Source: Aedoeadaptatus ivorii (lineage in GTDB: Bacteria > Bacillota > Clostridia > Tissierellales > Peptoniphilaceae). Taken from it: a stretch of DNA of 64,000 nucleotides. Made by a program: the position numbers and the translations under genes. The notes beneath the pieces were generated by a model. That model ran no database searches. It was not told the DNA's origin and saw only the letters and a program-made list of their open reading frames with translations. This document shows positions 38,527 to 43,029 of the stretch, one piece after another (within the stretch, counting starts at the first letter, position 1; the number at the start of each line of letters is the position of its first letter). Location: positions 522,001-586,000 of the forward strand of contig NZ_LR134523.1 of assembly GCF_900638585.1 (NCBI RefSeq), written 5' to 3'.

Positions 38527-38556
38527 CAAAAAAATCGGCCGAATAGCCGATTTTTT
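38527..38556. terminator. Bidirectional terminator between thrB and the AlaX-like gene
   Basis: AAAAAATCGGC CGAATA GCCGATTTTTT hairpin; its right end reaches the stop codon of the minus-strand gene. Confidence 0.85.
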
Positions 38557-39697
38557 ATTGCGCCGATGCCAGTTCGCTTTGGATTCGCATCAAAAATGCC
38601 TCCATAATATGCGCCATATCGCGATAGGCGACATTTAATTGGACGCGGTACATATTGCCCGTGCCGTCGATGCCGTCTCTTTCTTTTTCCAGATCGTTTA
38701 AGATCTTCTTCAGATCCACATGGGTATCCTGACTGCGGATCACGTGGATCTGAGCCTCGCTGCCGTTGGGAATGCCGTAAATCTGTACGGTGCGGGGTTT
38801 TCTTTGGATGGCGCCGGTCAAATTTTTGAAGTTCTTAAAATTGATGTTTTCGAGGGTCAGATAGATATAGCCGTAGCCGTTGATGCTCCGGCGGCGGTCC
38901 ATAAATTCCTGTACCTGCTCCAGTCCGAGGCGGGATTCCAGTTCCTGTTTTTCCTGCTTTAGGGTGTCGATCTGTCCCTGTAATTTTTTGACCGCCTGCC
39001 AAATGCCGGCGGGGGCGTCTTCCTTAAGATATAAGGACAGATTGTTTTTCAGGTAGCGATGCTTCCGATAGTCCTCGAGCGCTTCCGCGCCGCAGAGGAA
39101 ATAGAGGCGAATGCCGTCTTCGGTTTTTTCGGCATCGGTGATCGCAAAGAGCGCCAACTCGCCGGTGGCGCTCGGTGCGGGGGCATAGGAGACTGCGGAT
39201 TCTACGCCCGAGACCGAGAGCTTTCCGTCTTTTTCTACTACGGGCAGATTCGATTCGATCAGGTGATTGACCAGGTTTTCCAGCTTTTCCAAGGTCATAA
39301 AGCCCACATCTTGGGTATCAACCAGAAGATAGCATTTGTCTTCGGTTTCGGCGCCCAGCACGTCCGCGTGCAGCAGCGTCGCCGCCGCATCGGCAAAGAG
39401 GATGCGTGCCAAATTGTTCTGCATATTCTGCAGTCTGCGGGACCAATCTATGGACAAAGTTCCCGTCTCGCCGGCGGAGATGTCCTTTATGCGGTATTGA
39501 ATCCTGCCGTTTTCATCGACGGAGTACGAGATGGGTTTATCGTTATAATAGGCGAGATCGCCGCGGGTATAGCCCTCCACCGGGGGTTGAACGATGCTGT
39601 CTTCCAGTAAAAAGTGCTCATATCCCTTGCTATGTACCGTCGGGGGGATGGTGATTTCCATCTTCTTCCGATAGGGATCGGTCATATATAATGCCAT
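38555..39697 (-). CDS. Degenerate AlaX-like (alanyl-tRNA editing homologue) with DHHA1-like C-terminus
   Basis: 380 aa, SD AAGGAGG. The layout follows long AlaX editing proteins: N-terminal beta-barrel part (LEDSIVQPPVEGYTRGDL), a segment SIDWSRRLQNMQNNLAR where AlaX has DW.RR...HTxQH, a GIRLYFLCGAEALEDY stretch, a coiled-coil of about residues 240-275 and a DHHA1-like end. The zinc ligands are missing: HxxxH is replaced by NNLAR, and no CxxxH occurs before GIRLYF. It is therefore unlikely to deacylate mischarged tRNA in the usual way. Family assignment is from pattern only; function unknown. Confidence 0.6.
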   Translation of the reverse strand: MALYMTDPYRKKMEITIPPTVHSKGYEHFLLEDSIVQPPVEGYTRGDLAYYNDKPISYSVDENGRIQYRIKDISAGETGTLSIDWSRRLQNMQNNLARILFADAAATLLHADVLGAETEDKCYLLVDTQDVGFMTLEKLENLVNHLIESNLPVVEKDGKLSVSGVESAVSYAPAPSATGELALFAITDAEKTEDGIRLYFLCGAEALEDYRKHRYLKNNLSLYLKEDAPAGIWQAVKKLQGQIDTLKQEKQELESRLGLEQVQEFMDRRRSINGYGYIYLTLENINFKNFKNLTGAIQRKPRTVQIYGIPNGSEAQIHVIRSQDTHVDLKKILNDLEKERDGIDGTGNMYRVQLNVAYRDMAHIMEAFLMRIQSELASAQ

Positions 39698-39723
39698 AGA
39701 TGCCTCCTTCGCAGTTTTCCTCT

Positions 39724-39760: not shown

Positions 39761-42130
39761 GTGAAACGACCGTGGTTTCTCCTGTGTTCGGCGTTCGCCG
39801 CGGGATGCCTTCTCGCCGATTGCGTCTCGAGCGATCTGTTCTTTTTAATTTTTCTGTTTGCCGTCGGCGGCGCCGCCTTATGTAGGCGGGGCGGGCTTGT
39901 TTTGGGTGCGCTTTTGATGGCGGCGTCGTTTGCGTGGTGTATGCACGAGACGGCATCGGTTACAGCGGGGCCGTATCGGTTTGCGGCGCGGGGACGGGTG
40001 GTGAAGAGCGAGGCGCATTACTATGATCTTTCGGCGGGGATCGGCAAGAGGACACGGGTGCTGTCGGAATCCATGCCGCCGGCGGGGACGGAGATGGTCG
40101 TGCGGGGACCGGTGCGCTATCCCGAGCGACCAAAAAACCCCGGGCAGCCGGACGATGTGCGCTACGCCCTCTCCCGCGGCATAGTGCGTACGATACGGCC
40201 GGTGGCGGAAGAGACGCTTTCTAAAGCGGAAACAGATCCGCCGGGATCTCTATTGGCGGGGCGCGAATCGCTCGTGCGGCGACTGCGGGGCGTCTTCGAT
40301 CGGCATTTGCCGCCGCGGGATGCCGATGTGCTTTCTGCCATGGTGTTGGGTACCCGCGCGGAGGCGAAGAGCACGGACAGTTTGCGAACGCTGGATCTGG
40401 TACATATCCTCTCGGTGTCGGGGCTGCATATCGGCGTGTGGATCCTGCTTTGGGAGAAGGTGCTCCGCCGCCTCACCGCACCCGTCGCCTTTCGCGTACT
40501 CTGGATCCATCTGTTTTTGGCGGCCTATCTCTTTCTCGCAGACTTTCCCGTGGGCGGCATGCGGATTTGGGCGATGGTCCTCTTTCGCGATCTCGCCCGG
40601 GCAAAGAATGTGCCGGCGGATCCGATGTATGCGCTCTTTTTCAGCGCCGGCGTATTTTTGCTGTGCAATCCCTTTTACATATTCCATAGGGGCTTTTTGT
40701 TCAGTTTCTTTTCCGTATACGGTCTGTTTTTTCTGTACCCGAAACTCCGACCGCTGCTTCCCACCGGCGGCGTCCTACGCGACGGACTCGTCGCCTCTGT
40801 CTCGGTAACGGCACTGATCGCACCGCTGTTGCTTGAGACCGCCGGCGGCATCTCGTGGGCGGGTATTCTCGCCAATGTCGTGGTATTGCCCGCGGCATCG
40901 ATCGTTTTGATCGGCGGCATACTGTTGCTTGGATTTGCGGCGATCGCACCGCCCCTCGCTTTGGGGACGGCATTTTTCCTGCACCTCGTGCTGAGCGCGC
41001 TGTTCGGCTTTACCGATGCGATCGCTATGCTTTCCTCGAGCTGGGTGCTCCCCGCTTTTTCGCTTCCGGAAAGCGCGGCGTATATCGCGGCGATCCATGC
41101 GGCGGTGCTCTTTCCGTGGCGCCGGCTTACGCAACGGGCGGGGCGGGTGCTCATTCTGCAGGCGGTGGGGGTCGCATTTGCGGCACTCAGTACAACCTAT
41201 ATCCTGTCGCCGCCGCTTACGATCACCCAGCTCTACGTCGGCCAGGGCGACTGCGCCTTTGTGCGTAGCGGGGATTTTTGCGCGCTGATCGACACCAGCG
41301 GAAGCGCGGGTGCGAACGATCCGGCGCGGCGCTATGTGCTGCCGTTTCTTAGAAACCAAGGCGTAGGGCGCCTCGATGCGGTGGTTCTTTCTCACCACGA
41401 TATGGACCATGCACAAGGCATATTCTCTATAAAAGATGCGGTGCCGATCGATGCCGTATATGGGCCGGCAGCGGATGGAAACGACGCGTTGTTTCGAGAA
41501 ATCGAGCGCGTAGCGGGTCGCGTGCACACGGCGCCGGGTATGTATAAAGCGGGGCAGGGTCGAATTCTGCTCTACCCGTCGGTGGGGCGGGGCGATAACG
41601 CCGCATCCATGGTGGCGGAGGTATTTTACGGCGAGAATGCCGCGCTTTTTATGGGCGATCTTCCCCAAAGAGAAGAGGAGATTCTGTTTCAAAGGCCCGG
41701 CAAGCGCGGGATCGTAAAGCTCGGCCACCACGGTTCCCGCACATCGACCGGGGAAGCGTTCCTGATAAACACTCGGCCCGATTTGGCATTGATCTCGGCG
41801 GGAAAAGACAATCCTTACGGCCATCCCCACGAAGAAGTGTTGGAACGCCTGAAAGAGCATAGAATTCCCTATAAAAAGACCGAGGACGGGGCGGTGCGCA
41901 TGGATTTTTACGGCGATAGCATCGCGGTCGATGCCTTTCGCACGACGCGGATTTCTATGGCGCGCGGTATGATTTTTTTCCTCTTCATGGTACTCTGTAT
42001 AGGCATCGTCCGAATGGGCGCCGAATATTGTAAGAAAAGAGAAGAGATATGGACACAATGGACTATAAGGGGGCCTATCTCCTCCACGGGCCGGAAAAAT
42101 ACGGTATGGAGGAGCGGCGCCGAAAAATAG
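39761..42130 (+). CDS. comEC: DNA internalization-related competence protein ComEC/Rec2
   Basis: Membrane channel for single-stranded DNA uptake. The 789-aa protein starts with GTG 39761 (SD TAGGAGAG). In order: two to three N-terminal membrane helices and an OB-like loop; the competence domain with LVHILSVSGLHIGV (about 205-220) and about eight further helices; and a C-terminal metallo-beta-lactamase domain from about residue 480 with SHHDMDHAQG and LGHHGSRTSTGEAF. The end overlaps holA by 82 bases. comEA was not found beside it. Presence alone does not prove competence. Confidence 0.93.
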   Translation: MKRPWFLLCSAFAAGCLLADCVSSDLFFLIFLFAVGGAALCRRGGLVLGALLMAASFAWCMHETASVTAGPYRFAARGRVVKSEAHYYDLSAGIGKRTRVLSESMPPAGTEMVVRGPVRYPERPKNPGQPDDVRYALSRGIVRTIRPVAEETLSKAETDPPGSLLAGRESLVRRLRGVFDRHLPPRDADVLSAMVLGTRAEAKSTDSLRTLDLVHILSVSGLHIGVWILLWEKVLRRLTAPVAFRVLWIHLFLAAYLFLADFPVGGMRIWAMVLFRDLARAKNVPADPMYALFFSAGVFLLCNPFYIFHRGFLFSFFSVYGLFFLYPKLRPLLPTGGVLRDGLVASVSVTALIAPLLLETAGGISWAGILANVVVLPAASIVLIGGILLLGFAAIAPPLALGTAFFLHLVLSALFGFTDAIAMLSSSWVLPAFSLPESAAYIAAIHAAVLFPWRRLTQRAGRVLILQAVGVAFAALSTTYILSPPLTITQLYVGQGDCAFVRSGDFCALIDTSGSAGANDPARRYVLPFLRNQGVGRLDAVVLSHHDMDHAQGIFSIKDAVPIDAVYGPAADGNDALFREIERVAGRVHTAPGMYKAGQGRILLYPSVGRGDNAASMVAEVFYGENAALFMGDLPQREEEILFQRPGKRGIVKLGHHGSRTSTGEAFLINTRPDLALISAGKDNPYGHPHEEVLERLKEHRIPYKKTEDGAVRMDFYGDSIAVDAFRTTRISMARGMIFFLFMVLCIGIVRMGAEYCKKREEIWTQWTIRGPISSTGRKNTVWRSGAEK

Positions 42131-43029
42131 AAGAAAAATATATCGACGCGGCCATGCGGGATTTGAACTACGACGTGGCGGCCCCCGTCGCAGAGGAGAT
42201 TATCGCTAAGGCGAACACCCTGCCTTTTATGAGCGAAAAGCGCATGGTGGTGGTAAAAGATAGCGGCGTGCTCGCCGGGGCACCGGACATCGACGCGTTT
42301 TTGGAGGCGGTCTTCGAGATTCCCGATTCTACGATCCTCCTCCTCTTAGAGGGGGAGACGGCGATTCGGAAGAATCAAAAGCTCTACACCCGCTTCAAAA
42401 AACGCGACCGCCTAATCGCCATGGAGCGGCCGAAGGGCCGGCAACTCAGAAACTATATCGCTTCGTACTTGGCCGGCTACGGCCGAAAAATTCGCCCGGA
42501 GGTTATGGAGCGTTTTATCCGCCAGTCGGGTTACGAAGAGCGTCGTTACGAGGGCGATTTGCGAGAATTGGTCAATACCTTGGATCAGATTGTCAGCATT
42601 TCCGGCAAAGAGGTGACGGCGGAAGCCGTAGACAGCTTTATGGTGCTCTTTTCGGTCGAGACCATATTCGATCTATTGGATGCCGTCGCCAAAAAGGATG
42701 CCCCGCGTATGCTCCGCCTACTCGACGAATTCGAGGCGAAAGAAGAGCCGGCGCCCCGCATCCTCTATATGATCGCGCGGCAGACGGGCAATTTTTTGTT
42801 CTATAAGTATATGCGCGCCACCGGTCTGAACGATGCGGAAGTGTTTCGCTATATGGGCGTAAAGCCCTATGAGGGAAAAAAGATCGCCGCCAACAGCCGC
42901 GGCCTTTCCGAAGCACAGCTCAAGCGACATTATGCGCTGATTCTCTCGGCGGAGCGGAAGATGAAGACCTCTTCGGGATCCGATCGCGCGGTGATGGAAG
43001 GTTTGCTCTTGGATATGCTTCGAGTATAG
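42049..43029 (+). CDS. holA: DNA polymerase III subunit delta
   Basis: Clamp-loader subunit that opens the beta clamp. The 326-aa protein has the HolA pattern: YLLHGPEKYGMEE near the start, ANTLPFMSEKRMVVVKD, IASYLAGYGRKI and the C-terminal QLKRHYALILSAERKMKTSSGSDRAVMEGLLL. Either ATG 42049 or ATG 42058 could be the start; SD GAAGAGAT is weak. The 82-base overlap with comEC is unusually long but the order comEC-holA-rpsT is standard in Firmicutes. Confidence 0.93.
   Translation: MDTMDYKGAYLLHGPEKYGMEERRRKIEEKYIDAAMRDLNYDVAAPVAEEIIAKANTLPFMSEKRMVVVKDSGVLAGAPDIDAFLEAVFEIPDSTILLLLEGETAIRKNQKLYTRFKKRDRLIAMERPKGRQLRNYIASYLAGYGRKIRPEVMERFIRQSGYEERRYEGDLRELVNTLDQIVSISGKEVTAEAVDSFMVLFSVETIFDLLDAVAKKDAPRMLRLLDEFEAKEEPAPRILYMIARQTGNFLFYKYMRATGLNDAEVFRYMGVKPYEGKKIAANSRGLSEAQLKRHYALILSAERKMKTSSGSDRAVMEGLLLDMLRV

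Follow-up and report, generated by a model that had tools for sequence, protein, structure and literature searches.

A zinc-less homologue of long AlaX proteins is maintained beside comEC in Aedoeadaptatus and related genera

Introduction

The accessible part of PMC3158927 describes AlaX proteins as a back-up, present across the whole tree of life, against the mistaken use of serine for alanine, and states that the C-Ala domain holds the outer corner of the tRNA and brings the editing domain there. In the part of PMC10485164 at hand, C-Ala is reported to contact the tRNA D-loop and G18, and a lysine beside the GG motif matters in C-Ala of C. elegans. The closest printed case that we found is the AlaX-like domain without zinc of Plasmodium TrpRS, for which the available sections of PMC3680381 propose tRNA binding. 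Inactive or zinc-less bacterial AlaX was not found in the open-access literature, subscription papers having mostly been outside the scope of this search, which is weak evidence that a zinc-less, free-standing bacterial AlaX-L would be a new form.

Here we analyze such a gene in a window of 64,000 nucleotides, the whole stretch of Aedoeadaptatus ivorii DNA under study, from a genome assembled as one contig of 1.59 Mb. The original prediction, made from the letters of the DNA, was of a protein with the layout of long alanyl-tRNA editing factors that had lost all zinc ligands and was maintained for a non-editing function.

Results

The gene occupies 38555..39697 on the minus strand, a whole open reading frame including its stop codon that starts with ATG and encodes 380 aa. 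A ribosome-binding site AAGGAGG lies 5 bases before the start codon (39703..39709, minus strand); an intact frame and a good Shine-Dalgarno sequence had been predicted. At the place of the predicted terminator, two perfectly matching 11-bp arms of an inverted repeat (AAAAAATCGGC-CGAATA-GCCGATTTTTT) with A/T runs start inside the stop codon (38529..38556); the repeat is likely a bidirectional terminator shared with convergent thrB, but this hairpin is not among the calls of a consensus terminator scan, we think because the stem absorbed the T run. The flanking genes, all named from likeness, are convergent thrC and thrB and, divergently on the plus strand, comEC (39761..42130) and holA (42049..43029). 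Comparison of gene neighbourhoods identifies comEC as a neighbour conserved across the family and holA as the next conserved one. No Rfam family reached its gathering score anywhere in the window, and an RNA control element such as a T-box was rejected accordingly.

Over its full length the window protein is homologous to AlaX of the long kind that carries C-Ala. A profile-profile alignment (hhalign) of 12 zinc-less with 13 zinc-bearing long AlaX rows covered 376 columns at a probability of 100% (E 9.2e-54), in agreement with the predicted long layout. Residues 2-153 match the NCBIfam AlaXM model (E 1.6e-5; 24.7 bits against a curated cut-off of 300) and residues 177-338 match alaS (E 9.5e-13, likewise far under the curated cut-off); a PDB sequence match is 3kew (E 3.3e-4). 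The protein is thus related to the editing (SAD) part of AlaRS and also has the C-terminal C-Ala domain of the long (type II) layout. Residues 1-200 (39098..39697, minus strand), delimited by alignment and an N-half fold search of low model confidence, make up the N-terminal barrel and a SAD/editing-like domain devoid of zinc ligands. They are followed by a coiled linker (residues 201-257, 38927..39097, minus strand) and the C-Ala (DHHA1-like) domain (residues 258-380, 38558..38926, minus strand), which matches 2zvf and 3g98. Pfam assigned no family to the window protein and gave a weak tRNA_SAD match alone in 5/12 members; DHHA1 (PF02272) matched none of these 12 members and nothing at the AlaX-like locus in the genome search, yet DHHA1 folds do match. 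Two AlphaFold models built from 5-row alignments are poor (mean pLDDT 54 and 53), and their fold matches serve as support only. The full-length model retrieved AlaRS 3wqy at the top (E 1.7e-13), followed by the C-Ala structure 2zvf and by AlaX-M, with RecJ and NrnA chains also among its matches, and the first ten matches of the N-half model were all AlaX or AlaRS. A structure unrelated to the AlaRS editing domain had been named as grounds for rejecting the prediction; both low-confidence models place AlaRS or AlaX first.

Alignment to zinc-bearing rows confirms that all four ligands are gone: where the zinc rows have H, H, C and H, the window protein has N, I, S and A, and none of the four is retained in any of the 8 genus genomes. 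At the lost HxxxH position (residues 91-99, NMQNNLARI; 39401..39427, minus strand) MQQHTGQH of the zinc rows is replaced by MQNNLARI. The motif is lost as predicted, but its reading as NNLAR was off by one, the first histidine corresponding to the second N and the second to the following I, not to R. The CxxxH pair, rightly described as absent, has given way from PCCGTH to SYAPA (residues 168-180, AVSYAPAPSATGE; 39158..39196, minus strand). The GGQ loop, unchanged throughout the 13 zinc rows, reads GYT at residues 42-44 of the window protein, and a 21-residue stretch preceding the CxxxH position is missing from the zinc-less form, the spacing from SN to TGE being 27 residues in 30/39 zinc-less rows and 15/15 short rows (genera g24 and g54), compared with 48-49 residues in 13/13 zinc rows. 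A new conserved signature, GPxLxxTGE, stands at the lost CxxxH position; the window protein deviates from it at two positions (A172, P175), and P173 occurs in 100% of the zinc-less rows having that column.

Ligands supplied by shifted residues had been put forward as a second way in which the prediction might fail. Among 40 zinc-less rows, the only His or Cys column reaching at least 35% is a Cys at residue 356 (47% of 34), in the C-domain; shifted zinc ligands were not found, no His or Cys column in the N-half being able to replace the lost ones. The protein might still be a deacylase that does without zinc and relies on other residues of the remodelled pocket, whose sequence is newly conserved rather than random, with P173 fixed. 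We regard this as very improbable: zinc ligands, GGQ loop and the 21 residues have all gone, there is no new His/Cys set, and the conserved acidic residues D47, E140 and E180 are common to zinc-less and zinc forms and hence not new.

Full-length orthologues are present in 8/8 Aedoeadaptatus genomes, all zinc-less; four named relatives were identified, A. pacaensis, P. rachelemmaiella, A. urinae and A. coli. The family sample comprised 130 genomes, of which 67 had a homologue by profile and 40 further ones were examined beside comEC, with 23 left out of that examination. In 21/40 of the further genomes a homologue was located beside comEC. Among the 88 family genomes with a homologue, 79 are without the zinc set, a few of these keeping one or two His; six carry HHCH (G034, G105, G125, G127, G032, G033), two QHCH (G121, G123) and one HLCL (G017). 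Outside the family HHCH was found in 14/14 loci of one reading and 11/11 of another, counts that share some genomes and cover the loci read rather than all order-level matches. In 19/40 further genomes an AlaX-like gene was not found beside comEC, some of the stretches ending at contig ends, and in two genomes (G091, G092) it is gone and a thrB-sized frame lies next to comEC; the gene is therefore dispensable.

The form of the protein varies across the family. In genera g22, g13 and g4 insertions of variable length, located in the linker, join the two halves, most whole frames measuring 429-634 aa and some being split; g22 (L049-L060, e.g. L052:4620-6521) reaches up to 634 aa with a long insertion before C-Ala. 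Forms of 203-251 aa consisting of the N-half and devoid of C-Ala occur in g24, g54, g3, g12 and g30, and in G140, G143 and G014. The short zinc-less forms of g24 (L076-L091, L120-L133, L140; 203-250 aa) lie beside comEC, and many were missed by the profile. Two further observations concern the zinc site. The QHCH AlaX of genus g23 (L081:4291-5445, L085:4396-5505) is not beside comEC and has a very long branch, and odd forms reading HLCL, NYHF or none (L071:1015-2067, L073:4184-5299, L092:4216-5397) might record stepwise or independent zinc loss.

The AlaX-like gene lies divergently beside comEC in 62/67 genomes, with gaps mostly below 100 bases; the exceptions are G093, G094, G032, G121 and G123. 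The 62 include the zinc forms G034, G105, G125, G127 and G033, and zinc-bearing long AlaX in other families of the order (L014, L015, L017) is also found beside comEC, an old gene neighbourhood. As zinc-bearing and zinc-less genes share this position, the loss of zinc took place at the original locus, which was passed on vertically. An acquired unrelated paralogue was considered and is ruled out by the comEC-side position together with full-length homology.

Phylogenetic analysis united 37 zinc-less rows from 11 genera in one clade (SH-aLRT 99). In a 104-row tree with ligand and deletion columns masked, a single branch (support 97) separated 75 zinc-less from 29 zinc rows; this tree omits the split frames G145 and G134, G023 (pieces both below 200 aa), a second copy of the window row and four rows of odd form, G017 (HLCL), G106, and G121 and G123 (QHCH). 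The masked tree gives a single change, of which the clade of 37 rows from 11 genera is the firm part. A holA+comEC tree took in 52 rows, from those among the 67 genomes in which both genes were of sufficient length. There G017 and G024 fall together with the zinc-less G035 and G022, a placement that makes a second, independent zinc loss possible.

The gene is under purifying selection. In the two closest same-genus pairs its dN/dS is 0.122 and 0.086, lower than that of comEC (0.137, 0.175) and higher than that of holA (0.037, 0.069), with thrB at 0.069 and 0.043. Closer same-genus pairs gave 0.09-0.17, and all same-genus pairs with a defined value 0.086 to 0.236, dS being saturated in many. 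Among the short g24 forms dN/dS is 0.045-0.211 in the 8 of 9 pairs that have a defined value, and for G140/G143 it is 0.333. Purifying selection on the short forms indicates that the N-half has its own use in those lineages, and C-Ala therefore cannot be the whole function everywhere.

Mean pairwise identities of the editing and C-Ala regions are 45% and 48% in nine zinc-less rows versus 54% and 26% in 14 zinc rows. Because these row sets differ in breadth, matched identity bins allow a fairer comparison: in the 40-50% overall bin, C-Ala identity is 48.9% in zinc-less (6 pairs) versus 28.9% in zinc-bearing proteins (15 pairs). Constraint has moved to C-Ala in the zinc-less form. Positions invariant in 34 full-length zinc-less rows include P173, Y279, G308, S322, K330, G347, N348 and F368, of which Y279, G308, S322, K330, N348 and F368 are new C-Ala invariants.

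These data bear on whether the gene is on its way out. Its absence beside comEC in 19/40 genomes and the lost C-halves or split frames of others might be read as decay, a reading to which we give hardly any credence, since the gene is intact in 8/8 genus genomes with dN/dS about 0.1 and its C-Ala is conserved better than in zinc-bearing homologues. Decay is ruled out by purifying selection and conservation. That the gene is maintained, as the original prediction had proposed, accords with the 8/8 orthologues, the low dN/dS and one clade of 11 genera; the conservation of the zinc-less form in relatives, which it had suggested examining, extends over the genus and that clade.

Remaining editing capacity was assessed by a SAD search. 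The A. ivorii genome contains two SAD matches only, AlaRS and ThrRS; its AlaRS retains the editing motifs HSVTH and CGGTH, and the ThrRS editing site is also kept. A separate intact alaX, for which the original prediction had advised a search, was not found among SAD-type genes of this genome. At E 0.001 the number of SAD matches is exactly two in each of the 38 genomes of the zinc-less clade, with positions known for part of these matches. Genome G080 (L127), whose zinc-less homologue is short, has a third SAD match at another place, which may be an AlaX with zinc.

Discussion

In our view the window protein is very probably a pseudoenzyme that arose in place from a trans-editing factor of the long AlaX type. 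As the gene is kept under selection in the same place without an active site, its job is most likely non-catalytic. A maintained non-editing function had been anticipated and is supported by conservation, selection and the lack of replacement ligands.

What this function might be is a matter of more graded judgement. Hydrolysis of Ser- or Gly-tRNA(Ala) would have been lost, with AlaRS itself presumably doing the editing. C-Ala may still bind nucleic acid, most likely tRNA at its outer corner, the remodelled N-domain may provide another surface of contact, and the protein would act as a non-catalytic tRNA-binding factor in escort, sequestration or regulation; the hydrolase would be gone and binding would remain, as proposed for the Plasmodium domain. 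On the evidence of the C-Ala domain, tRNA binding or regulation is plausible. We hold this reading as a whole tentatively, as our preferred one, at somewhat short of even confidence. Three features speak against its simple version, namely charge (the N-half is acidic, with pI 4.66 and charge -13, and the C-domain carries only +1), the Lys beside the GG motif, which is not constant in the zinc-less alignment, and the forms that lack C-Ala.

The acidic N-half would suit a scaffold or modulator that works by protein contact, for instance by pairing with AlaRS or with a second copy of itself through the dimerisation surface of C-Ala, any RNA binding being secondary. The C-domain of the model matches 2zvf, the C-terminal dimerization domain of A. 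fulgidus AlaRS (E 6.4e-7 to 2.6e-5), and the new invariants of the C-domain include hydrophobic and glycine positions. Such a role is nevertheless rather unlikely, as a single fixed complex is hard to reconcile with the long variable linkers of g22, g13 and g4 and with the several lineages that have lost the C-half.

The position beside comEC raises a further explanation, that the C-domain has turned to another nucleic acid, such as an mRNA or incoming single-stranded DNA at ComEC, in DNA uptake or comEC-holA control. The close divergent arrangement in most genomes is in favor of this, as are the RecJ and NrnA chains among the fold matches and the DNA binding described for RecJ DHHA1 and several C-Ala domains in the accessible parts of PMC3158927 and PMC10485164. 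We judge it improbable, because the zinc-bearing AlaX of the order is already beside comEC, so that the neighbourhood is older than zinc loss, and because comEC is present in 108/108 good family genomes, with or without an adjoining AlaX-like gene. A bolder proposal, which we regard as a long shot, sees a domesticated ex-editing enzyme as a new kind of free-standing nucleic-acid factor, with GPxLxxTGE marking an old active site turned into a surface for recognition and with a retuned C-Ala, perhaps sensing or holding a particular charged tRNA or handling the strand imported by ComEC, with editing left to AlaRS alone.

In this anaerobic family the AlaX activity seems to have been abandoned and the protein kept (79/88 without the zinc set). 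One locus offers a natural series from zinc enzyme through pseudoenzyme to half-length form, in which one can ask what an editing protein does besides editing.

Among known systems, AlaX-M (3kew, 9iuw, 2e1b) matches the N-half of the window protein in sequence and fold; AlaX-M carries the zinc site and has no C-Ala. The C-terminal half of AlaRS has the same two domains, editing and C-Ala, whereas the window protein is without the aminoacylation domain and the editing ligands. The Plasmodium TrpRS AlaX-like domain (AXD) has likewise lost both zinc motifs, and its authors favour tRNA binding over editing in the accessible part of PMC3680381, which also describes 2e1b; as far as that text goes, AXD is apicomplexan, fused to TrpRS and devoid of C-Ala, whereas the window protein is bacterial, free-standing and C-Ala-bearing. 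Long AlaX/AlaXp with C-Ala (type II) shares with it full-length homology, domain order, the IDW..R...MQ and TGE surroundings and the position beside comEC, and differs in possessing HxxxH, CxxxH, GGQ and 21 further residues, constraint having moved to C-Ala in the zinc-less form.
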